From contig UZAN01039806.1 of NCBI GenBank assembly GCA_900618425.1, forward strand, positions 32,136 through 96,135: 64,000 bases of DNA, in the 5' to 3' direction. Below are positions 1 through 61,117 of this stretch, one piece after another; the stretch's first letter is position 1, and each line of letters opens with the position of its first letter. The translations under genes and the position numbers were made by a program. Origin of the DNA: Echinostoma caproni. Lineage: Eukaryota > Platyhelminthes > Trematoda > Plagiorchiida > Echinostomatidae. The notes under the pieces are model-generated. The model searched no databases, had not been told where the DNA came from, and saw only the letters and a program-made list of their open reading frames with translations.

Positions 1-3000
1 GTGTTGCGATGTTCCGTCTGCTGTGCACAGACGAAGGTCACTGGGCAGTCAAAGTCTCGGAGCGGTCAGCAAAGCATCAAATTTCGTGTGTGCTAGTTGG
101 ACAAGCCTCACAATGCTCATCGAAGTTCCGTCCGATCGATCTCTCATTCATTCTTAGCAGTTGTCTCACCCGCATTGAGATACAAGGAACGAATCCTTCT
201 GTGCTGGCGTAGGGTGGCCAAGGAATGAAACCGAATACGGCTTTTCCTACCCGAGGAACATAGATAGCAGAAACAGGAGTCACTCAGAATCTTTCTCGTT
301 TTGAAGTTGAAGGTATTGAAATAAATTGAAATATAATCTATGATATTTTCCACTTAGCACTACTAATGCTAACAAAAAACCATTAGGCGTATTAAATTTC
401 CCGAACGTGGGATCCTCCTCCGCAGCAATTGTGGTTCGATCTGTAGGATACCAGTATCTAAGTTTACTGGAGAATCTAATAGCCGCAGCGAAATATTGTG
501 GGGCATATTTTGCAAAGCGGGGAGTAGATGAAATCCACGTACATCGTCCATCTTATGTACACAATGATGATAGTGGTAAACATATCACTCTCATCTACAA
601 TCAGAAAAACGAAAGCTTCGATATCATGGCAACTATCATCGAATTGACAACTATCGACCTTCAGAAGTGAACACACGCTACTATCTTCATTTGTTACCCA
701 CGTCAATCAGACGAATAGTATTTGTGGCAAACTCTCCCTGTGACACGCTTGCTATTTTATTAAATGGGCTCTTGGTGGATCGGTTTACAGCAACTTTCTT
801 CTATGGGGTTCTTGATCCTTAGTAAACGTTTGCTAGAATGACCCTTTAGGTTGCATTCCCTTTGATATTGATGGGGTCGCTCTGTATATACATACATGAA
901 GAGATGAAGGGAAGTATACATAAGTATGTAAGTATATGTTTAGAAGGGTGTATGGCACGAACTAACCGATTTCATATTGGTCGCAAAATTTGGGGGCATC
1001 AAGCACCACAACTATTTCTTTTGAGCTACAGTATACCTCTCAGTTCGTAGGGATGGGCATTAGATTCAGGCTTCACAACTGAAAAAAATGAACAGTGAAT
1101 AGGAGCCTAATTTCAAAACTCCACGTCAAAAGCGTTTGCATCGCTGCCCAGTTTGCATTCTTCGCGTGTCCTTATTACTGTGGCTTCGAGAACCCTACTA
1201 TTGCAGATTCATGTTTCGATTCATACAACTAATTTATGTTCTATGCTGCCCAATGGTCTAATGTGAAATTGGTGACATGACCATTGAGAAAGATTGCCTC
1301 AAACTGAAGAACCGATTTCATGCATATATGTAGTTTTAACAAAGCATATTTCCTACATCTGTTGGACAATATACGAGATATGTTTACGATTTTTCTACAA
1401 CCTGAATAAGTTTGCATGATTACCTTTGCATAAGAGCTAAAATACCTACATTTCATTACATGTGATTCAGGTGGATCGGTAGATTAAACTAATTAATGTT
1501 TCGTTTTACAAACATTTAAACCAAATGTATGCTTCAATAGGAAGTGTTTGCATGGGAACCAGAATGGCGTCAGTACTGTTCAGTTTTTCAAACAAGTACC
1601 GTGATTGCATCCGCCGACCTGATTCAATTCTGATACAGAAATATTCCGGAAATTAATTTTTTACTTCCGGTAGCCTTAATACGGGTATGGACGTATGCAT
1701 CATGTCATAGCGTGATGTGTGAACTTCGTTAGATCTGATCACTAGTTGAGACGATAAAAACAGCGTTGCAGTTTCGTGGGTCTCTGTAAAGTACCAATCC
1801 ATGAGACGCTGGCACACAGACTAGCTTACTTATGATGACAATCACGCATTACTCGCTGCTCTTCATAAACCAGTTGTAATTCCTGATGCTACATCATTTT
1901 TGACATACTTAATGTAGTTCATCACACATTTTTAAACTGATGGGAGACCACGATTCATGTAGAGTCACGTGTGAAAACTTGATCGACTAGTTTCACTGTA
2001 CCCGGTAATAGTCAGAGCACACAATACTGCAGATTATATCCTAATACAGAAATCATGTAAAAACCTAAACTGTGATTTTTCCCGTTCAAAAAATAACGCT
2101 ACAATCTATGGAGGGACAAAAAACTATTCACGCTTCGCCACCCTTCAGTACGTCTCCTGTGACATCATTCCTGGGGCGAGCAACGGATAATGCAAATCGG
2201 TTGAATTTAATTCGTCAGACTCACAAAAAATGCGGGATCGGGAAAGATGATTAGGCTTGTGCAGTATCCTCACACTCTGCCATCTGACACAGTTTCGTTG
2301 ATAAAAGTTGAATATACAACAAGCATTGTATTATGGTCCAAGTGGTCAGCGATGCGACGCTTTTCAACTGCGCCAGTATTCGTTTAGCTAAAGTTCTTTG
2401 ATCTAAGTCACAGAACAACCTGTTAGCTGAGATCTTCAGTGCCCCGTTATGGTGAAAGAGGGTTGTGTAGTGCTGTTTTCCCAGTAACCGTATACCAAAA
2501 CATTTTAATGTCAGAACGTTCTCTGTAATTCGTGAAAGCAAATGATGTAATGGAAATCCAAATCCACTCGTTTTCGGTTATAGGGAGCAGTAGGCTCTTA
2601 GATGAAAATTAACTAAATTCCGAATTTCATTTTTTGTGATGGTTATAGATTATCACCGCCAATGAGACCGTATAAGACTGTCACGCTGTGGTGCTTTCTT
2701 CACCTTCACATTCAGGATTTTGTGCTCTTTACATGACGAAAGGAGCATATACTTCCTGGTCAATGGGCGTTGTTCGCTTGGAGCTGCTAGTTATTCAATT
2801 AGCTGTCAGCCTGAATGAATATCTCGCCTCCTACTGTGTTGTCTGGGCACTTGAATGAACTGGATCATTCAGCTTGCACATAACACAATAACAGCTTCAT
2901 CGAAGCATGTGCTGGTTCGTCGACGAATCGCCGACCGTTCATGTTGACGCACATGTGACTGTGAAATTTACATAATTATCACGGACGAGCACACAATGAC

Positions 3001-10869: not shown

Positions 10870-13390
10870 GAGCTATACTGCGGAACCTTTGGCGTCTAGT
10901 TCCTATTCAATGATCGAATGTACCAACAGACGGATGGCGTAGCAAAGGAATCTCCGTTAGGATCTTTGTTGGTGGACATTCATGGGGGATCCTAAGAGAA
11001 CAATCTTACAAAGCATTATCCGCAACTTCCGTGTGTACTGTACATACGTGGACGATATACCTTTCATAACAAATCCAACAAGCAACGCTGCATCCGTGCT
11101 GGAGACATTCAATGCAAACCAAAACTCAATCAAATTCATCATCGAGCCAAATAACAATGATCGAATCCCATTTCTGAACAACCTAGCGATCCGAAACCCA
11201 GAGGAAACCATCTAGAGGGGAGTACACAGAAAACTAACTCATACGGGACAATAGGTGAAGTTTTATAGCCTCGTGTCAGCGACAAAAGAGGAATCTAATG
11301 TGGTGGTTTGCAATGGGGGCTCGGAAACGTCGCTCTCCCAACACCGTAGCAGAATAAGTTGAGAACATCAGGAATTTGTTCGCTTTCCCGATAGCCTTAT
11401 TATTAAACATTCAACAGAGAGACCTCCGTGACCAGTAACGCACATGGCAAATAAGAAACCACTTTAATTGTAACAAACCGTCATGGTTGATTGGTTTACA
11501 AGACGGTTGAATGAGGCGTTGCATCAAACGTTTGAGGCGATAGCTATCCAAACTTTGTATCTTTCAGGCGTTAGCCTTGCCTCGACTCCACTGCACCCCG
11601 ATATTTTTACCCTCTTGTAATTTTTAACCGATCCACACGTTCCCTCTTTTGGCGTCTACTCGAGCATAAATATAAACAATTATAGAAAGTCATTTGTATC
11701 CTTACTGGACATTGTAGCTGTTTAGGATTTTTTACACTGTATCTCGACCTACCAATCCTGTGTTTGTGGTTAAACGTTTTTGCCGTTCACACCATTTTGT
11801 CCGCAGACCAACCAATGTATATATAATAATGATTGTACTTCTGTATCGTGAAAATCTATGAGAACATTGAACAGCTAAGTAGTCGATGCTATCGGCGGAA
11901 TAATCAAAAAGAATTTCAGACTTGCCCCTCCAGGTTGAGTTTATGTACGTGATCACTCCACCTACTGTTTTCTCCTTACAGTGCTTCCTATCCTTACGGG
12001 AGCATTTAAAACCATTGATTCCATTTAGTGAGTCCTCGACATTATGGTCAAGACATGATTCTTCGATACAAACAACACACGTGTTACGGTGGATGCATGA
12101 ATCAAGGGTGCACGTTAGATCCGTCGTCTTTGTGAAGAGCTACCGGATATTCGTGCTGACCAATGATGTTGGTGTGTGACTAAGCGCTGCTTGCCAGCCA
12201 CCGCGCTTGCGTTTCTTCATTTTAGTAGGAATGCGAAAACGAGCCGACGAGGACACGAGAGACAGTATTGAGACGATCATGTTTCAAACTTATTAACTGA
12301 GACCGCGAATAAACCTTCCGAGTGGTCATTTTGTGATATTTACGAAAACAAATAGTTCCAAGGTAGAGAAAATGTAGCGTGAGTGATGGAGCACAAAATA
12401 AAAGATAGTGTTTCCAAGTCCACCCATTAGAAAGTTCTGTTAGAGGAAAACGTATCTTCACAGATTATGAACGTTTGCACTTACTTTAAAACTAGTCTCC
12501 TTATACCTCATACAACAAATCTTTGTAACTCATAAAGTAGAAGGCAACAGCACGAGCCTTTTGAGGAATGAGAGTTAAAAGGCGAATCAATGGGACGTTA
12601 GAACGCTCAGTTTCCCAAAATGCCACATGTAATGGTTACCGAACGTGGGCTTGTGAAACCCTCTTTCGTCATATTGGAGGTATATGCTCTCCAAATGCAC
12701 TGAAGGAAAAGGAGAACCTCCTGGAGAGGGCTCTGATCAACGACGGTTACTCAAAAACGTGTATAAACATTCACAGTGAACCATCCGCAAAAGGTAACCT
12801 GAACAAAACCGTTAGCAAAATAGGTAGTCTAACTAAAGCTTACGTTCAAATTTGACCACATTCACAATTATGTGTACCGCAAGTTGAGGCCAGCTCCGGG
12901 TCGTTCAATCCAAGCTGTTCAACTCAAACGTATTGATCTGGACAAAAATAAACATCCAACAAATCGGATCTCTGTGTACCTGTTCACCTGCTAATGCGGT
13001 GACAAATTCATGGGTTGAACAGACGGTCAGCTCTCATAACGGATGGCCTAACGTACTCAAAACGGGTTGGTAAAATCGACAACTCAACAGAAAACTGAGG
13101 GTCAAGTGATTGCAGGAAATCTAGTGCCTTCTGTCGGAAAACGTTTGCGATTGGTGATACGTCGATCAAATAACCAAACTTTATGCGCACAACGGTTCTC
13201 GACACAGTGAATCCAATAACCGAGGGGGTTCCATTTAACTTCTATTTTTAGTGATGTTAGTTTGTGTTTATACGTTTACTGACTATTGAACAACTGTAAG
13301 TGTTGTATATGTGATCGTTTGTTTTAAGTCAGGGATTGAGGAGATTCAACGGTATGCTGCCATCTCGCAACATTTGGCATCTTTCTATAA
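10870..13390 (+). mobile_element. Penelope-like element, broken copy 1
   Basis: Pieces of one PLE protein appear in the right order on the plus strand. At 10870-10989 the frame reads FLFNDRMYQQTDGVA then SPLGSLLVDI, which is RT motif B of PLEs. After a frameshift, 10982-11215 carries the catalytic YVDD (11045-11056) and the conserved continuation ending near PFLNNLAIR. At 11219-11270 HRKLTHTGQ matches the PLE segment after the palm. At 12580-12855 ICSPNALKEKENLLE and INDGYSKTCI match the linker before the endonuclease. At 12960-13215 SVYLFTC, CGDKFMG and RMA are a decayed GIY-YIG domain, with NQTLCAQ at the C-terminus. Several stops and frameshifts show it is dead. Its 3' end (about 13300-13385) resembles the 3' end of the copy at 49.7-50.35 kb. 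Confidence 0.85.
11300..12560. other. Unrelated insertion inside PLE copy 1
   Basis: The PLE protein stops matching at about 11.30 kb and resumes at about 12.58 kb, leaving about 1.25 kb that has no counterpart in the copy at 51.3-53.8 kb. There the same two protein segments are adjacent. The insert contains open frames of 74-85 codons with no recognisable domain. No target duplication or terminal repeat was found, so its nature and exact borders are unknown. Confidence 0.5.
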
Positions 13391-16111: not shown

Positions 16112-16660
16112 GTTTCAGAACACAGGTTGTAGGTGAACACGTAATTTCGGTGGGTTCCTTATCAAGCCAGTACAATCACATTTATGTGAGAAAATAGCTG
16201 TAAGGTGTTGTGTTGGAATCAAACAGTATGGGTCAAATAATTATAGAAAAGGGGTGGGATAGGGACACATTTGTGACTCGTTCTCACGTTGAGATAAGAA
16301 CGGATTACGTAAGCTTTGACAATTAATTTTGGTAACCGCAACGCTCATGCGTGATGTTGTCCGCTTTGAGCCAGGAAAGTTTAAGTTCCTGAACAAGTGT
16401 TTTTGAGCACAGAATTATGCTTTTAACAAGCGGATGATAATTACCTCGTCCGTTGCAAGCGTTTTAATTCGACCAGCCTTGGATTTGTGTTGTAGAACGC
16501 GATAAATGATGGTGAAGGCTGAAGTAGTATCCATCCTATGTCCATTTTCGACCAAGTGCGCAACAATGGAACTGGAAATAACTCCGATTCCTCCATGTCT
16601 AAGCCAAGTGGATTGATGTTCCTTGATGCGCTTAGATATCTTGTCGTACATTGGAGTTTT
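16112..16660 (-). mobile_element. PLE relic 2: GIY-YIG C-terminus and tail
   Basis: Minus-strand frame from 16651 to 16415 encodes the second half of a GIY-YIG endonuclease: SKRIKEHQSTWL, then SSSIVAHLVENGHR, then AFTIIYRV and EVIIIRLLK. The C-terminal FCAQK and the 3' untranslated tail continue to about 16112. The tail is closely similar to 51.30-51.61 kb and more distantly to 42.77-42.99 kb. It lacks the RT and is truncated at the GIY half of the motif. It provides an uninterrupted counterpart (around 16405-16440) of the site that carries an insertion at 51.6-51.8 kb. Confidence 0.85.
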
Positions 16661-16739
16661 ATTCTATTTGTTCGTACGGTTCAATCTTCATGATATAAAT
16701 GTTAATTGCTCCTGCGGTCCCTAACATTTGAAACCTAAT

Positions 16740-27249: not shown

Positions 27250-27480
27250 GCATTTTGAGCTTTTTTCCTTTGAAAGATGAATTTGTCGTGTATATAGCAA
27301 ATTAAGAGTGAACTGGAAAGCCAGAATGCACCGCACAACTGTTTCGACCTGGTTGGGTCGCATCAGCAGTGCGAATCTATGGATCCAACTGGGGATCGAA
27401 CTCAACACTCGCTCCTTATCAGTAGTCAGGTTGTGAAAGTTTCCAAACCGAATCACAACCCTGGAGGCTAGTGCTGAGAT
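27250..27480 (-). mobile_element. Hammerhead SINE, copy A
   Basis: On the minus strand a B-box-like GAGTTCGATCCCC (27391-27403) is followed after a short spacer by a complete hammerhead-like fold (27328-27372). Then come the family tail words TTCCAGTTCACTC and TTTGCTATATAC and an AT-rich end. The same order of B box, hammerhead and tail occurs in copies B, C and D. The long minus-strand open frame covering this region is therefore fortuitous. An internal pol III promoter is inferred from the B box; an A box is not clear. Confidence 0.7.
27328..27372 (-). ncRNA. Hammerhead ribozyme motif, best-preserved copy
   Basis: Minus-strand order: stem I strand GCACTG; core CTGATGC (consensus CTGATGA); stem II GACC, loop CAACCA, GGTC; core GAAA; CAGTTGTG forming a very short stem III and the cleavage site; stem I return strand CGGTGC. 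Stem I gives six pairs (one G-U) and stem II four perfect pairs. Two core positions are changed: A9 is C, and the nucleotide before the cleavage site (H17) is G. Both are expected to abolish cleavage. Type I layout with tiny stem III is known for hammerheads in PLEs and other retroelements. Confidence 0.7.
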
Positions 27481-27568: not shown

Positions 27569-27775
27569 TGATTGAGTGAGTAGCATGCTTGCATTCTGCA
27601 TGTGAGGTCCCGGGTTTTATGCCCACTTGGCTGGATGGATACTGCTTATTAGACCAGGTCAAACAGCTGTCCGGTGCTTCTTAGCTTTTCAGCTCACTCT
27701 TCATTTGCTATATACGCTACGAATTTACTTTTGGAATTTATTCAAATCCTCCATTACTCACTTTTCTTTTAAAAG
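27569..27775 (+). mobile_element. Hammerhead SINE, copy B
   Basis: The plus-strand start GATTGAGTGAGTAGCATGC is A-box-like, and GAGGTCCCGGGTTTTATGCC (27604-27623) is a decayed B box. A hammerhead-like segment follows at 27639-27677: ATACTG, CTTATTA (from CTGATGA), stem II GACC-A-GGTC, AAA, CAGCTGTC, CGGTGC. The tail CTTTTCAGCTCACTC then TTTGCTATATACG and ATCCTCCATT closely matches copy C. The first core strand and the G of GAAA are lost, so it is inactive. The palindromic stem III ACAGCTGT and the GTC cleavage triplet are intact. It lies head-to-head with copy A. Confidence 0.65.
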
Positions 27776-34680: not shown

Positions 34681-34840
34681 TTTACTATTTATTGAATATA
34701 CTAATGTACAGTCAACATTCAGAAAGGGAGGCCGCGGCCATGCAGAGGTTGCCAGGGAATGTGGGCGGTGGTGGAGCGGTTCGAACCCAGAACTTATAGG
34801 TCACAATTTGATGACCTAATTACAGCCACCACCCCAATAT
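34680..34840 (-). mobile_element. Second tRNA-like SINE family, copy 1
   Basis: Read on the minus strand, a 67-nt tRNA-like unit (34767-34833) has acceptor-like arms GGTGGTGG and CCACCACC. It also has an anticodon-arm-like GGTCA/TGACC hairpin and a perfect B box GGGTTCGAACC (complement of 34778-34788). A body with the complement of GTGGGCGG follows, and then a tail around 34690-34720 containing TGTACAGTCAACATTCAG on the plus strand. The same order is present at 46.87-46.99 kb, in decayed form at 44.14-44.29 kb, and as a tail only at 54.29-54.37 kb. Confidence 0.65.
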
Positions 34841-34876
34841 ATATATAAATATATATATATATTGGAGTGGTGGTGG
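34826..34876. repeat. Palindrome with TA core
   Basis: CCACCACCCCAATATATAT on the left is nearly the reverse complement of ATATATTGGAGTGGTGGTGG on the right, with an AT-dinucleotide core. The left arm coincides with the acceptor-like arm of the tRNA-like SINE, so the palindrome duplicates that end in inverted orientation. Confidence 0.75.
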
Positions 34877-35649: not shown

Positions 35650-35855
35650 TTTGTGGGAATCTATTCTCCCTGTTATTGGCCTCTGAGGTCCCGGTTTCGT
35701 TCCCGAATGGGTCGATGGATTCACACTGCTCATGAGACCCAACTGGTTTATAACATCTATTCNTCTTTTTAGCTTTTCAGTTCACGCTTCATTTGCTATA
35801 TATACGACAAATTCACTTTTGAAATTGAATTAAATCCTCCATTTCTCATTTGGAA
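35650..35855 (+). mobile_element. Hammerhead SINE, copy C
   Basis: B box GGTTTCGTTCCCG (35693-35705); hammerhead-like segment from 35723 with ACACTG, CTCATGA, stem II GACC-loop-GGTT and a degraded TATAAC in place of CGAAAC. The tail TTTTCAGTTCACGC, TTTGCTATATATACG, AATCCTCCATTTCTC is the same as in copy B. One ambiguous base at 35763 falls at the expected cleavage region. Stem III and the return strand of stem I are not recognisable, so this copy is inactive. Confidence 0.65.
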
Positions 35856-46861: not shown

Positions 46862-46998
46862 TTTTGTTCAGTGAATATAGACATGTACAGTCAACTTTGA
46901 GGAGGAGGGCTGCGACCATACGAACACTGCTTGGGGAAGTACAGAAATAGGAAAGATGGGCGGCGGTGGAGCGGTTTGAACTCGGGACTGCCGGTTCA
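46862..46998 (-). mobile_element. Second tRNA-like SINE family, copy 2
   Basis: Plus-strand order CAGTGAATATAGAC, TGTACAGTCAACTTT, GGAGGGCTGCGACCAT, GGGCGGCGGTGGAGCGG, TTTGAACTCGGGACT, then TTCACAATTTGG. This is the same succession as 34.69-34.82 kb; the minus strand carries the B box GAGTTCAAACC. A PLE fragment begins directly after it. Confidence 0.6.
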
Positions 46999-47009
46999 CA
47001 ATTTGGTTA

Positions 47010-47510
47010 TCACTTGGAAATTGGCAATTCCATTTATTCAGAATGTGCTTGGCTGAGGACTGGAACAATTGAGACAGTTACGAGCGCGGTGTGTTCGCAT
47101 CTCGTTGAGTCAAATCTTTCGGTAAATGTGGTGGACGCGTTCCGACCGATTTACAAGGTTCGTTGCAGGCAATCAAAAGCGGCGAAGCATCGTATATTAG
47201 CCACGACCGAAGCCGTAAGTACTCGGATTCACAAACCCCCTTGTTCGCCCAGAAGAAATTTGTGCAAGCACTTAATCTCCCCTGGCCCATTTCAACCACT
47301 TCAACAGGTGTGCAATCACTTGAACCTTTGACACTGTGATCAATTTCACACAAATACACGCACGCATGATTAGAGCCACAGCTGAATCGTTAGGACTCGA
47401 ATTTCTCATCCCGTTTCGTTTCTTATTGCTAGTCATATTTAATGTTATGTAATGGCATGATTACGACTAACTGAAAACGAACTTGTTCGCCACACTATTC
47501 GTTTGAATAA
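47010..47510 (+). mobile_element. PLE relic 4: GIY-YIG C-terminus and tail
   Basis: In the plus-strand frame 46966-47331 the part SAVCSHLVES, then AFRPIYKVRCRQSKA, HRILATTEAVSTR and PPCSPRRNLCKHL matches the C-terminal half of the PLE endonuclease region. The expected words are HL...H, AF..IYRV..QSK, AEAI..R and LCAQ..L. The N-terminal part of that frame is the SINE above. Near 47470-47490 AAAACGAACTTGTTCGCC is the inverted form of the repeat word at 43.44 and 51.65 kb. Truncated; no RT. Confidence 0.65.
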
Positions 47511-49678: not shown

Positions 49679-49696
49679 GATAAAATATAATAAATA
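49679..49696. repeat. Left target-site duplication of PLE copy 5
   Basis: GATAAAATATAATAAATA here matches GATAAAATATAATGAATA at 50353-50370 in 17 of 18 positions and brackets the PLE fragment. Confidence 0.65.
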
Positions 49697-50352
49697 ATAA
49701 TAAAATTTGAGGGCGATCACCTTCTGAACCATGTTCGTCAAAAGTTAAAGTCGGCTCTCAGCCGCACACTCCCTGCTGCTCAACTCCGACTTTTCACTTC
49801 TACTGGTGGAATCGATTTGGACAAACATGTGCATGTTTGGCAGTCCGGTTCTATCTCACACAGTGTATACCAGTTCACCTGCAGTTGCGGTGACGCATAC
49901 ATAGGCAGAACCAACCGTCAATTATCACAGCGGATGGCCGAACACATTCCAAAGTGGTTAGTGAAGTCAATGACGCAACCTATGTCTAGTAATCAGATGG
50001 TCACACGTAACCCGGGGTCATCAATTGCAAAACACCTCATGACAACCAAACACATAGTTGATCCCGCTTCCTCCTTCAAGCCGTTGTTACGTAACCACAA
50101 TCCTAAACTGTTGGCAATAAGTGAGGACTTACTGACCCGATTAAGTAACCCTGTTCTGTGTGCCCAAAAATCAATTCACTTGTCGTGGAGTTGACCTACA
50201 TTCTAATAGCCCCTGTATAACTGTACATGTCCGTTCTCTATGATTTACAATTTCAATGTGCTATAAATGTGCTTGTTTGTTTTACGTCAACGATTGAGAA
50301 GATTAAACGAAATGGTAACATCTCGCGACATGTCTTCTTTCGGTCTTGATAC
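49697..50352 (+). mobile_element. PLE relic 5: intact GIY-YIG domain, 5'-truncated
   Basis: From about 49706 to the stop at 50194 the plus strand has an uninterrupted frame of 162 codons that begins inside the PLE protein. The linker is GDHLLNHVRQKLKSAL, PAAQLRLFTS. The GIY-YIG nuclease follows: SVYQFTCSCG, DAYIGRTNRQLSQRMAEH, then SSIAKHLMTTKH, ISEDLLTRLSNPVLCAQ. The GIY/YIG pair, the Arg of GRT and the Cys-x-Cys are all present, so it is the best-kept endonuclease in the window. The RT is missing. The 3' end (50265-50330) resembles 13300-13365. Truncation at 5' plus flanking direct repeats is the outcome expected of target-primed reverse transcription. Confidence 0.85.
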
Positions 50353-51608: not shown

Positions 51609-51790
51609 CTGAAAATTCCCATTGTGACATCAACAGAACAACACGAGTAGCGAACAAGCTCGTTTTCGATAACTTCAATCAACACATTTTCGTTCTGACA
51701 TTATTTGTTGCACGTTTATTCACTAAATGTATATAACTGTATTAGCCAGAGGATGAAGTTATCGAAAACGAGCTTGTTCGCTACTCGTGT
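51609..51790. mobile_element. 182-bp insertion with perfect inverted repeat
   Basis: This segment interrupts the C-terminus of the PLE between duplicated copies of AATTCTGGTTTCA. Inside it, 51641-51677 and 51754-51790 are identical 37-nt inverted repeats separated by 76 nt. The arms contain GCGAACAAGCTCGTTTTCG, a word also seen at 43.44 and (inverted) 47.47 kb. The spacer has TTTATTCACTAAATGTATA, similar to the tails of PLEs and the second SINE family. One arm abuts the right duplication exactly; the other lies 32 bp inside the left edge. The identity of the arms implies a recent event or gene conversion. A twin-primed PLE-tail insertion or a small foldback element are the main readings. Confidence 0.75.
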
Positions 51791-51803
51791 AATTCTGGTT
51801 TCA
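51791..51803. repeat. 13-bp target duplication, right copy
   Basis: AATTCTGGTTTCA, partner of 51596-51608. Confidence 0.85.
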
Positions 51804-54117
51804 ACAAGCGGATGATAATTGCCTCAGGTGTTGCCTGCGTTTTAATTCCAACAGCCTTGGATTTGTGTTGTGGGACTCGATAAATGATGGTGAAAGCCGA
51901 ATCAGTATCCACCCAATGTCCAGTTTCGACCAAGTGTGCAACAATGGAACTGGAGTTAACTCCGATGCCTCCGCGTCTAAGCCAAGTGGGTTGGTGTTCC
52001 TTGATGCGCTTAGATAGCTGCCCTGCCGTACGACCTACACAAGTGGCATCACAGGTGCACTTGAATTAGTAGATGAGCATTGACGAGGTCGATAGAGGCA
52101 ACTTCGGATGACGGTAATGTCGAGAAAATGCATCTAAGGTTGGCAGCGTTGAACGTTGTTTTGCCTGCGGCACTGAGGACTCTACTAACCCTTTCAGCTA
52201 CTGGATCTCCTTTGAACGGAAGTTTGATGATCAAAGTCTTTTTCTCAGTCCTATCTACAAGCACCTGTTTTGTTCTTTCAAACCAGTTACGATTGATGAA
52301 CGTTTCCGGGTAACCATTTTCTGACAAGATCTATCGGACAACTGCTGATTCTGTTTCTAAAGTGTCTTCTGAGTAGATGAATCTTACTCTGAATAGAACA
52401 CAGCGCACTTAGTTACGCTTGCAAGAGAGCGGTACAAAACTACGGAGGTCTGTGTACTGTCCGTTCCATGTGGCTTTTCGATGCACCTTCCTCTGAATGG
52501 AGCCATCCAAAAGTCTCTTTAAATTAATGGTAATTCGTTATATTCTTCCTTATCAACTGTAAGGCGTATCCATGAGTATGCCACTTGGAAGTTCAACAAC
52601 ATATCGTTGAGGTTCAAACTGTCATCGGAAATACAAATATATCATCCATATATTTGTATTAGTGATCAAAATTATTGATGACTGTGTACAGAGAACCAGA
52701 TTCTAATTTTGCCACAAAATATATCCGCTAGGACTGGCCATAAGGGAGATGCCATGTCAACTCCATCATTTTGGTGATCATGGGTTTTACCAAACAAGAA
52801 TTGCACTTTGAACGTGCACCTAAGTATCAACTCTTTGAGACCGTCAACTGGTATGCACATGGGTGTGTTCTCGCACGGAATGTATTGGTAGATGAAGTTT
52901 ACTGTCTCGAGAGATACATTGGTAAACAGGGACACAATATCAAGAGAGAATATTTGTTTTCCTGCTAAGTTCAAATCTTTTATAGCATCTACAAGCACGA
53001 AGGTGGCTCGTATTGTGCTTGGCAAGTTTTTATGTACTGTTTCGAGAACCCCTACCAGCCATCGAGCGGCAGCGTGATTGGTTGAGTTTGTCATGGGCAG
53101 TATTGGACGAAGAGGTAAGTGCAGGTTTGTGGAATTTTGGTAAGCCGCATGATCGATCTATGTTGGAACATAAGAGTTTAAGTCTTTCAAAAAGGTTTGC
53201 TGATATATTTCCTTAGTCTCTCAGCCTCTTCAGCGTTCCTGTGATTTCCCTTTCGTTTTTTCAATTTGGTCAAACGCAGTATATTTCGACTGAATTTTGA
53301 TTCATCCTGCAGTGAGGTAACCATTTTAGAAATATATACTTCACGATCCATCACAACGTTTCCAGTTCCTTTATTAGGTCTACTCAGGAGAATTCGCCGG
53401 TCTCATTGTAGTTCTTTAATTACATCAAGATGCTTATGTGTAAGAGTTTGGTAACGCCAAAATTAACAGTAAGCTGTGACTAACGATGATTTGAATCGTT
53501 CTAAATCTTCAACCGATTTAGGTGTAAGATCAGTCGTTAGCCCAAACAGGACTTCAAATGGTAATTCCAATTCCGTTTGATTAACTTTGCGACCAGGACA
53601 ACAAAATTTGGAACCGAGAGACAATGATGCGATGACAACGCAGCTTATTTCAGCACTGGAAAAATTGTGAACGTACCGCTCTGGTGTGTTTGAAAATTGG
53701 GCTTGAGGTGTGAGGAGACTCAGTGTTGGATTCGAGGACAACATTTTCTTCCCGTAGCAGCAATCGGTTATCACTTTAACTTAATTCATGAACCTGGGTT
53801 TATCTCTGTCACTCAAGTAATCCACAGGTGATTTCTGGTGAGAAACAGATCTTCCGAGCGTGGAAATCACAGGTCTAATAGTATACAGTTGGTTGAGAAC
53901 ATGGTGTCTTGGAGTTTGACTGTTAGGGTAAATCTGGTATCGACGTTAAATGTTTTCAATACCCCGTGGGGTATTTAGAATGGTTTACACAATTTGTAAT
54001 GAAATCAGATACACAGTTGGCCCCACATATCCTGGTGGGATACTTGAGGAACTGAAGTTTTCGTTTAACACCGTGGGCAGATAGGATAATTTCAAATCAC
54101 AAAATAAGCCCATACTC

Positions 54118-54374: not shown

Positions 54375-57050
54375 TTTGTCTACGCAAATTCCTGGGGATT
54401 GTTACTTGTTCCAGGAACTGTTCATCGGATCATGGTGGCCATGGGGCTTACCCTTTCTAATATTTTCACTTAGTATGCATTTAAATATTAGTTAATTAAA
54501 ATCTTCCATTCGTTTGCAAATACTACTTTCTCTGATATGAAGAAACAAAGTACCATGAGAAATCAATAAAATCATATGGGATAACTTGAAAAAGGTCATA
54601 TGACGTCCATATTCAGTTTTGGTAAATCAAGCATGTCATTGATGATTCGACTAACTGAAGCATTTATCATGCATCATTCAAGATGAACTGCTAAGAATTT
54701 TAGGTGATACCGATTTTTTATGGTACATCACCTCACGCCTGGCGTTGTCGACCGCAGATAGAAGGCAGTTTAACACGCCAAATGCATCTAATTTGGGATT
54801 GACTCATATATGATGAAACTAATTTATCATCGTCGCACAAAAGTAAAACGGAATGTATCGTTTAATTAACAAATAGGTTACGGTTACACCTAATTCTAGG
54901 GGTTCTGAGAAAATGCTTTTGCTCGTGTGCATCACAAGCTTTTACGGAGCAATTATACGTTTTGCTTTCAAGCACATTATGTGTAATGAAGCGATAAACC
55001 TCATAGTCACGAAAACTGTTGCCTAGCAACCGGCAACCTGAATACTGAAACTTGGAATGGAGAAAAAATTCAGGCTGAAATAGAATAAATCTGACAGTAA
55101 GGTGAACAACAAACAAAATGACTACTAGCAAGGTTGAATGGCGAACCTAGAATTCAATTCAGAAACTGAATCTCAACAGTGAAGACAAATTTCATCAACT
55201 GACATTAATCAAACATTAATCATCTCCAGGTGTGCATGTTTTTTCAATCAAATCAACCTTATCGTTATCTTTGCAGAAAAGAATCAACTATCAAACATTT
55301 CGAATTATTCGTGCGATCAAAATGCGAGGAAGATGTTTTTGAATTCATGTCGTTGGTTACAATTGTTCTTAATCCATAACCTTTATCATTCGAAGATGAT
55401 GTGGGTTTCACATTGGGTTTATAACCCTTTTCGGGTTTTGAAGGAGGCCATAAAATGCCTCTTTCTGTTGGCTTACGTATTGCTGACGTCATCTAAATCC
55501 CATCTGTTATCACTTAGTAATTAGTTTTCTGGCATTGATCACACAACTAATTGGTCAATGTATGGAGAATTCAAATAGTTAAGTTGGTGAAGTTGGGAGT
55601 AGCACGAGTTCATATTTTGGGACTATCATTGTCCATTATTTTGCTGTCAACTAGTTCAATCGCTAGGCTAGTAACATGGAAATTTAAATAAAATCGAAAT
55701 TAAGTGATCTAAATCGAGAAAGAGTGATAAATGTGATGACAGTTTTGTGAAGGACCACGGTCATCTAAGTAAAACTTTTGTACAACAGCAATGGAGTTAC
55801 AAAATTCTCCTAGTAGCTTTTTAAGGATAATGAGAGTGATGTGACCTTCAATCAAAATACCACGACTGAAGTTATAAAATCCTGTTTCCCCGAACAGGAA
55901 TGTAGCAGATAAAACAAGATGGTATCAAGATAATAACAAAATATCATACAGAATTGGAAATAACAGACTTTCAATTGAAAAAATGCCTGACTTTACAAAT
56001 CTGAAAAAACAGATGACGCAAATCGCCCAATAAGCCACTTTGGTGGATGGAACCTCGAAGGTCACAGACCAGTGACTAACTGAAATATTTGGTCCAAGTT
56101 GGACTGTGTGGAGCAGTGACATGAAACGTGATACTGTAGGTCGGAAATACAAAATGTGACAGAGGAAAGATCAGTTCGAAAATTTCGGAAGGTTAGGATG
56201 TAAACCACAGGTTTCTGATAGTTCTGAGAGAATTAAACGAGTATTGAACAGGATTGGAATAAAAGCGAGTGAGATAAAACGAATCTCATCATGTTCAGAG
56301 CAAATGATATCACCGGAAAATCTTGGAAGAATTGGAAAACTACTTCAATATGACTAGGTGTGAATTCCGATGCAACTTAGTGTTAGGCACGCAACTATGT
56401 TTGTGTATAGGGTGTATGCGGTTTGTGTATAGGTAAAATGAAAAACTGTCTGATCACTTGCTGGTGGTCAACTTGGTATTATACTTGCTTTTGAATGTGT
56501 GTTGATCTCCTAATACTATCGTCCTACTCGAATCCAGTTTACTCTGTTTCCATTTGTACCATTCCCTAATTCACCCTTAAATCTTCCTTCTTTCGATCCG
56601 TCTTATTGTGTCACATGTTTGAGCCGACCAACAAGTTTATTGATCAAATTGATTTTTCCCACGCACTCCCCGTATTTTTGCCATTAACCCGTGTCCCCTC
56701 CGTTGTTTGGTTGACTAAGCCTTCCCATCATCGATCGATATATGACACTTTTGCTCACATTCGAATTTACCCATCCAACTTACAGAGGCACATGGCATCC
56801 ACCAATTAGCATGTAAGCTGACTGCCCCGCCAAGTTTCCCTTAGAATTCGCCGGAGTCCACCGAATGAACATGTAATACATCTAGGACCGAGGCTACTGA
56901 ACTTTTCACAATCGCCATACAAACTTCAAATCTTCCAAACATCAGTTTGCACTTTTTTCCTCGTCTATTTGTACCCCGACGCGAACTTTTGACCACTTTC
57001 GTGATTCACACACCAACGTGACCGGTTGGTTGTACGCATGACCGGATTGA
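54375..57050. other. Non-coding stretch
   Basis: No supported gene. A 75-codon minus-strand frame (55492-55265) is rich in Lys, Ser and Pro but lacks splice sites. A 13-bp direct repeat (GTTTGTGTATAGG) occurs at about 56398-56430. Confidence 0.4.
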
Positions 57051-57051
57051 T

Positions 57052-57053
<2 letters not shown>

Positions 57054-57103
<50 letters not shown>
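57054..57103. repeat. AC microsatellite
   Basis: About 25 AC units with one interruption (CAAAC). Confidence 0.95.
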
Positions 57104-57474
57104 CACACCAGAGCCCAGTCATTATCACAAGTGCCATTGGTCGCCTCTTCTGTTCCATTGGATTGGTTCATTGTCGGCCATCGGACCCTTGTACTCATAT
57201 TGTAACGAGAAGGCGAGCTGGCTAGGGAAACGTCTATTGATCCAATTCAAAAACAAACAGTGTCTGCGTTTGATACAGTCAATTCTCAACCGCGCGGTGG
57301 GATGATTCATGCCTCTTTCTGTGGGTCATTCGTTGTTGGTCTTGGTCCGCACTTGGCACGTACGTTGCCTCTTCTTCCGCGTGCCATTCCGACTGGTTTG
57401 ACCCGAGCGCAGCGCGAGATGCGTTGATCGATGCGTTGATCTCTCCCTATTCATTCTGACCGTTGATCTCAATC

Positions 57475-57784: not shown

Positions 57785-57965
57785 AGATTCAACACTTGCT
57801 TCCTACCTCTGAGTCCCTGGTTTCGACCCTCACTTGGGTAAATGGGTTCCAAATGTTGATGAGATCCAACCAGTTCGAAACAGCTGCTCAGTGTTCCCTA
57901 GGTTTTCAGTTCACTACTCATTTGTTCTGTACACGTTGAAGTTCATTACATGATCAAGTCAAATA
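57785..57965 (+). mobile_element. Hammerhead SINE, copy D
   Basis: B box GGTTTCGACCC (57819-57829). The hammerhead-like segment at 57851-57895 comprises TTGATGA, stem II region GATCC-loop-GTTC, intact GAAA, then CAGCTGCTC and CAGTG. Family tail TTTTCAGTTCACTAC, CATTTGTTCTGTACACG follows. The second core strand is perfect here while the first has one change (C3 to T). Stem I pairing is poor. The copy is diverged in its 3' tail relative to copies B and C. Confidence 0.6.
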
Positions 57966-57969
57966 TGCC

Positions 57970-59799: not shown

Positions 59800-60730
59800 A
59801 ATGCGTTGATTAATAAAACGTATATTTTGAAACAAATAAGATTTATTTTACTTCCTGGACGTCCTTTATGGAAGAGAACTCCTGTATTGACCTTTGATTA
59901 ACTTTCAAATACGTTTTCGCTCCAATATATTAACTTGTCTAAGTTGAGGGCTATGGCTAGAGTTCACGCCTAAGTCCTCATCCTTGAAACTTACTAAACG
60001 GAGTAAACTCAAGCAAGAATGATAAATCTGATCTATGTGATACCCGTTGGCATAGCACAGAACGATCAACATGTGCGACACTGAACACATCTACACCTAT
60101 AAACGCATCTGGTGGAGAACCCAAATTTTACAAACCAAATCAGATATTATAATACATCATTGCAAAAGACCTCTTTTTTAACGTGCAGATTACCTTCACG
60201 CATTAGATCTACGTATATCCTTCAACATTTGTAATTTATGAGGTGAAAAGACAGATATATAAAGTCTTTGGAAATATGAAAGTCAGCTTACCCAAGTCGT
60301 AAGGTGTTCATTTAACTGGGCTAACATTACATCGGGGAAACCATTAAAACAGATTTATACTCATGCATCTATAATACTACCTTAACCGACGTCAATTAAG
60401 AAGGTGGATTTGGTTTTTTCGAACCAATTTATCCAAAGGAGTCGATCTATTTAACAGTTGTTTCTTCATCCCATGTGTAAAACTCGTATCGAGACTGAAA
60501 TGGCAAACCGCTTGGAATTTACATTTTATAACCAATATACAGTTCAAATAGGCAAGTCATGAGAGAAATAATGCTAGAGGGAATACCTTCGTATGCTCTC
60601 ATTGGTCGCATCATCGTGACAAACCCTAGCTAAGGATACGCGAGGCATTATCGATCGCTCACAACAGACGCACTGTGTCCCAGAACGTATGACCTTTACC
60701 TTTGGCCTTCCCTGATGGTAACCAATCTCG
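59800..60730. other. Non-coding stretch
   Basis: Only short motif-free frames. A short plus-strand frame at about 60560-60630 (REIMLEGIPSYALIGRIIV) is protein-like but has no splice support. Confidence 0.4.
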
Positions 60731-60734
60731 TGAA

Positions 60735-60735
<1 letters not shown>

Positions 60736-60762
<27 letters not shown>
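60736..60762. repeat. CA microsatellite
   Basis: About 13 CA units, followed by a degenerate CACACG/CGCGCAC patch up to about 60791. Confidence 0.95.
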
Positions 60763-60765
<3 letters not shown>

Positions 60766-61117
60766 GCACAAAAACACACGCGCGCACACACGGTTAAACC
60801 TAATTAGATTTCATGTGAGTAATGCAGGCTTTCGTCCAATTTCAAAGGCTAAATAACTAGAATTTTTAATTCAATTCATTTGTCTGTCTGGTTGTGTTAT
60901 AAGTACGCCACAGACGAGAGCATACGGAAGTAATTCCTCTCGTAGTGTGTTTATCTTTTGACTTGTCTGTTCAAATTCATTACCGGATCCAACTGTTTCA
61001 GTTTACTGAATGGATAGTTGGATATACTCTGCATATTTTACTTTCTCTGCATTTAATATCAATAATGTTGTCTTAGATTGCTACTGTTAAGTCATTCTGT
61101 TGTTCAACTATTTGCAG

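Follow-up and report, generated by a model that had tools for sequence, protein, structure and literature searches.

A decayed type I hammerhead motif in a dispersed SINE-like repeat of Echinostoma caproni

Does a short minus-strand segment of the Echinostoma caproni genome still encode a hammerhead ribozyme, and what kind of repeat carries it? The segment lies in a stretch of 64,000 nucleotides (the window: contig UZAN01039806.1 of assembly GCA_900618425.1, positions 32,136 to 96,135 of the forward strand). An earlier note, made from the letters of the window, had described a complete type I hammerhead there, inside a tRNA-like SINE.

The motif and the repeat that carries it

The window was compared with the Rfam families using cmscan, which showed that Hammerhead_1 (RF00163) matched the segment at 35.3 bits (gathering score, 34 bits) with an E-value of 3.9e-05, computed for 64 kb and 4227 Rfam families. 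The match ran from end to end of the model (positions 1-45 of 45), and when a sub-window of 276 bases was searched, RF00163 was found at the same place with an E-value of 1.7e-07. No other family of any kind reached its gathering score in the 64-kb window. Seven Rfam matches were obtained at E of 1 or lower, and the six besides RF00163 were all far below their gathering scores: two were to SCARNA7, and a single TA-rich inverted repeat drew the other four. The stems, core strands and coordinates that the earlier note had assigned to a type I hammerhead were borne out, and the covariance search that it had proposed gave a significant match.

All 14 model pairs of this motif (copy A) were standard, and no non-standard flag appeared in the cmscan alignment. 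Judged against the printed RF00163 consensus only, 7 of the 14 stem pairs differed from the consensus on both sides and 7 were the same. In a monomer, stem III, to which the model gives four pairs, seems able to form no more than two pairs, closed by a loop of four bases. The window was also searched with a core pattern made of both core strands and stem II. With up to three mismatches this pattern matched twice in the window, both times inside repeat copies, and a match was contained in 0 of 100 dinucleotide shuffles. The RF00163 match, the shuffles and the pairing together indicate a real motif whose sequence is not simply that of the Rfam consensus.

The surroundings of copy A were compared with the window by BLAST. 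The data showed three more clear copies, all on the plus strand, which are called B, C and D here (E-values against copy A of 5.9e-15, 1.1e-17 and 3.1e-12, respectively). Pairwise identity among copies A to D was 62-78%. A search with nhmmer, using a profile built from copies A to D themselves, gave the envelope of copy A and two weak pieces, one of which is a possible older copy, E (Table 1). The 64-kb window thus holds four clear copies and two weak pieces of a dispersed short repeat, as expected of a SINE. Copies A and B are adjacent, head-to-head and within 500 bases. The earlier placement of a type I hammerhead within a SINE-like dispersed repeat was supported by the RF00163 match, by the four copies and by a weak match in copy D. 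Of the three N bases in the window, one (35763) is part of the copy C hammerhead region.

Table 1. Features of the hammerhead motif and of the repeat, in window positions
Feature	Positions	Strand	Basis or remark
Type I hammerhead motif, copy A	27328..27372	-	RF00163; reads GCACUG-CUGAUGC-GACC-CAACCA-GGUC-GAA-ACAGUUGU-G-CGGUGC
Stem I, 5' strand GCACUG	27367..27372	-	cmscan alignment and pair list
Core strand CUGAUGC, with C for A9 at 27360 (canonical CUGANGA)	27360..27366	-	
Stem II GACC/GGUC with loop CAACCA	27346..27359	-	cmscan alignment and pair list
Core strand GAA (G12 A13 A14), intact	27343..27345	-	cmscan alignment
Stem III region ACAGUUGU; in the model four pairs, no loop	27335..27342	-	cmscan alignment
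Position 17, preceding the cleavage point: G, not A, C or U	27334..27334	-	sequence
Stem I, 3' strand CGGUGC	27328..27333	-	cmscan alignment and pair list
B-box-like stretch AGTTCGATCCC, upstream of the copy A motif	27392..27402	-	10/11 to the B-box consensus
Copy A (aligned element core rather than true ends)	27255..27413	-	BLAST and nhmmer envelope
Copy B	27601..27750	+	BLAST, nhmmer; hammerhead region 27639-27677
Copy C	35682..35838	+	BLAST, nhmmer; hammerhead region 35723-35765, one N inside
Copy D	57808..57967	+	BLAST, nhmmer; hammerhead region 57850-57894
Possible older copy E (tentative)	2645..2740	+	nhmmer E 0.0047, copies A-D profile
Weak repeat piece (tentative)	56276..56359		nhmmer E 0.011, copies A-D profile

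The head of the repeat and known hammerhead elements

The head of the repeat was examined for tRNA-like features. ARAGORN at default settings found 0 tRNA genes in the 64-kb window (relaxed settings were uninformative, reporting 403 'genes' in the window), and four sub-windows around copies A to D gave no Rfam tRNA match up to an E-value of 10. A full tRNA gene in the element head was rejected on these two results. The heads were also scored against the A-box and B-box consensus sequences. The B-box-like stretch upstream of the copy A motif agreed with the consensus at 10 of 11 positions, and the aligned stretches of copies B, C and D scored 8, 9 and 9 of 11, respectively. Among 400 random 100-base pieces used as a control, 2 reached a score of 10, 35 reached at least 9 and 196 reached at least 8. 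No A-box above the control was found in the heads of copies A to D. A tRNA-like head, as described in the earlier note, is therefore plausible but weakly supported. When exact 9-base words were compared as candidate target-site duplications, none was found at copies B, C and D, and the one found at copy A may be a chance match. A hairpin with arms GGTTGTGA and TCACAACC was seen in the head of copy A (about 27428-27461, minus strand); the heads of copies B, C and D fold otherwise.

The closest known kind of element is the schistosome Sm-alpha/Sj-alpha hammerhead SINE. Sm-alpha (W36.2, Schistosoma mansoni) and Sj-alpha (S. japonicum) are likewise dispersed and SINE-like and carry a type I hammerhead, and a short stem III is common to them and to the E. 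caproni repeat. Loop II is similar, reading CAACCA in copy A and CAAAUA in the Rfam consensus. Half of the copy A stem pairs (7/14) differ on both sides from that consensus. Degraded copies occur here as they do among the schistosome W-elements (PMC8490949, in excerpt). The head of S. mansoni Sm-alpha is derived from tRNA-Gln (PMC2770079, in excerpt), whereas a tRNA-like head is weakly supported for the E. caproni repeat. Hammerhead SINEs with cleavage activity are known in schistosomes (excerpts of PMC8490949 and PMC2770079), and in a blastn search for the hammerhead motif S. mansoni yielded about 38,500 candidates and S. japonicum 5,000 (PMC2770079, same excerpt). By analogy, and as far as can be seen, the E. 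caproni repeat would work like Sm-alpha/Sj-alpha.

Listings and excerpts of the literature on hammerhead ribozymes with trematodes or Fasciola showed no such SINE in a non-schistosome fluke, and retrozyme-like repeats with type I hammerheads are mentioned for platyhelminths in general (PMC7229834, in excerpt). The exact core pattern of the family and the exact core pattern of the Rfam consensus each gave 0 matches in viral contigs and 0 in prokaryotic genome contigs, and the exact tail pattern of the family gave 0 in viral contigs; because these collections are viral and prokaryotic, the zero matches say little.

The repeat could instead belong to the retrozymes or Penelope-type elements and, unlike a SINE, have spread by way of a circular RNA that carries tandem hammerheads and is cut by the ribozyme. 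Metazoan retrozymes are also non-coding repeats bearing type I hammerheads (PMC7229834, in excerpt), and Penelope-like elements bear minimal hammerheads without helix III, located in the terminal repeats of the element (PMC6155905, in excerpt); their very short stem III resembles that of copy A. However, metazoan retrozymes are tandem repeats that are made into circular RNAs (excerpts of PMC7229834 and PMC4918200), whereas the motifs described here are single and known from DNA. None of the four copies had a tandem partner in the window; copies A and B adjoin in head-to-head orientation only, and 30 kb separate the two core-pattern matches. For schistosome repeats no sharp line divides SINEs from retrozymes in any case, these repeats being treated under both headings (excerpts of PMC4918200 and PMC2770079). 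Copies that occur singly, as these do in the window, suit an Sm-alpha-like SINE better than a retrozyme built of tandem units. We consider the retrozyme or Penelope-type origin improbable, even with what seem to be fragments of Penelope-like proteins in the window.

One of these candidates was the 166-aa open frame at 49694-50191 (+), in which we see a likeness to the GIY-YIG end of Penelope-like elements. Six homologues of this frame were found among 45 candidates, the best being P0001 (66% identity over 98%), and PF26215 was present as a precomputed annotation in three of the six relatives. Pfam scans of the frame and of P0001 gave nothing. Further short interrupted frames, judged by eye to resemble Penelope-like pieces, lie at 51784-52330 (-), 52675-53157 (-), 10961-11212 (+), 16418-16663 (-) and 46951-47328 (+), and Pfam gave nothing for the six Penelope-resembling frames tested. 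Among the frames listed, the nearest pieces to copy A that are probably Penelope-like are about 10 kb or more away. In all, P0001 and 19 ORFs of the window (20 proteins) were compared with Pfam, which gave two matches, both below the cut-offs. An inverted repeat with a TA-rich middle at 34825-34874 gave weak matches to microRNA families in Rfam and is probably of low complexity. GT/CA-type microsatellite runs were seen at about 57051-57107 and 60730-60781.

Core lesions in the four copies

In the canonical hammerhead, position 9 is A and position 17 may be A, C or U (the NUH rule). The core of copy A has two defects, C in place of A9 and G at position 17, and it departs in this from the CUGANGA/GAA core and NUH triplet of RF00163. 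The earlier note had given the letters of the core, CTGATG(C), correctly, with no conclusion from the final C; its claimed cleavage-site triplet did not hold, reading GUG, with G where the NUH rule wants A, C or U. Because of the lesions at A9 and position 17, copy A is a ribozyme-derived motif and not a predicted working ribozyme. Judged by its core, the ribozyme of copy A is probably dead and no longer cutting.

The minimum free energy fold of the copy A 45-mer was a rod-like hairpin in which C9 pairs with G12 (-19.7 kcal/mol, versus -9.4 kcal/mol for the hammerhead pairing). The best fold of a majority-style 45-base family motif, in which tied columns had been settled by the analyst in favour of the hammerhead, was also non-hammerhead (-15.2 versus -8.5 kcal/mol). 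Since these energies ignore tertiary contacts, and since the majority-style motif also prefers another fold, the fold is a weak argument for inactivity; the core lesions are a strong one.

The 45 columns of copies A to D were aligned by hand, and lesions and pairs were counted. At the homologous place, copy D matched RF00163 with 16.6 bits and an E-value of 0.21, under the gathering score, and the sub-windows of copies B and C gave no hammerhead match in Rfam up to an E-value of 10. Copy B had lost five bases of loop II (most of the loop) and G12, and its G5 and G8 were changed. Copy C had lesions at G5, G12 and A13, and its stem I 3' strand was eroded. The core of copy D was intact save for a change of C3 to U, and 5 of its 14 pairs were broken. 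Standard pairs numbered 14 of 14 in copy A, 13 in copy B, 9 in copy D and 6 in copy C, where 3 pairs were uncountable. Nine core lesions were counted across the four copies, one to three in each and none alike; copies B and C shared two lesion positions, with different changes. The commonest letters at the ten core positions fit the canonical hammerhead, though G5 is found in just 2 of 4 copies, and G12 in 2 of the 3 that have a base in that column. U4, A6 and A14 were retained in all four copies, and position 17 was T, T, C and G across the four. Nine distinct lesions together with canonical commonest letters form the pattern expected from neutral decay of an ancestrally intact ribozyme.

We also analyzed conservation across the copies. 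The compensatory stem changes that the earlier note had named as support were not found among copies A to D, whose differences were one-sided or pair-breaking. Identical between-copy comparisons amounted to 33/57 in the core (position 17, at which either C or T is permitted, is counted in), versus 161/237 in the whole motif, 151/237 in the head and 248/345 in the tail (the next 59 columns), counted from a MAFFT alignment in which the gap of copy B is placed otherwise than by hand. Because the core was no better conserved than the flanks, the copies look like neutral fossils. For these four copies of a 64-kb window, the conservation pattern would speak against selection on the motif.

These counts bear on whether the ribozyme might still be active, serving the cell at the copy A locus or in the repeat family, for example in transcript processing. 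The complete pairing of copy A (14/14) and the three core bases kept in every copy speak for such a function, but copy A has lost A9 and carries G at the cleavage position, every copy has at least one core lesion, and the core positions are no better conserved than their flanks. Among the schistosome elements, candidates with a mutated core or a deleted cleavage site were inactive, as predicted (PMC8490949, in excerpt). We regard present activity as very unlikely, and a live ribozyme at the copy A site itself was rejected because of the core lesions, the fold adding weakly to that argument. It is hardly credible that the likeness arose by chance and that the repeat never encoded a ribozyme. 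Two of the four copies lack a hammerhead match and copy A scored only 1.3 bits over the gathering score, but chance was rejected on the RF00163 E-value of 3.9e-05 across all Rfam families and the 0/100 shuffles, and the commonest core letters among the four copies, each mutated differently, agree with the canonical hammerhead.

Origin and significance of the repeat

The hammerhead motif of copy A is genuine, though decayed, and the repeat in which it lies is dispersed. The explanation that we prefer, and hold to be highly probable, is that copy A is the decayed remnant of one insertion of a SINE-like, non-autonomous repeat. The founder RNA of this repeat would have borne a type I hammerhead in its body, downstream of a possibly tRNA-like head, and the ribozyme would since have been lost by mutation. 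The motif, its pairing, the four copies and their differing core lesions are seen in the sequence; transcription, ancestral cleavage and mobilisation are proposed by analogy. The founder repeat would have been transcribed, probably by RNA polymerase III. Stems I to III would have formed in its RNA, which would have cleaved itself at an NUH site, and the cleaved ends may have been suited to processing or circularisation. As in known hammerhead retroelements, copies would have been reverse-transcribed by the enzymes of another element. After insertion, each copy would mutate without constraint; copy A would then have kept all of its pairing and lost A9 and the cleavage-site base, and is predicted to be inactive now.

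Several results count against this explanation. Copies B and C lack a match, compensatory change is absent among the copies and the core is less conserved than the tail. In addition, the minimum free energy folds are non-hammerhead, stem III is very small, support for a tRNA-like head is weak and the target-site duplications are not convincing.

The decay of the copies after insertion is consistent with a ribozyme that served the spread of the element rather than the host. The finding extends by one the repeat families known to carry a hammerhead within a SINE-like element, and is of modest importance in this respect. It is possible, although we hold it doubtful, that the repeat represents a separate hammerhead SINE family with stems unlike the Sm-alpha type, active in ancient times, and that young, core-intact, self-cleaving copies exist elsewhere in the genome. 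If true, a separate old family would put hammerhead SINEs deeper in the host lineage than the described schistosome families do. A family that is old and outside the schistosomes would help to date when hammerheads joined these SINEs.
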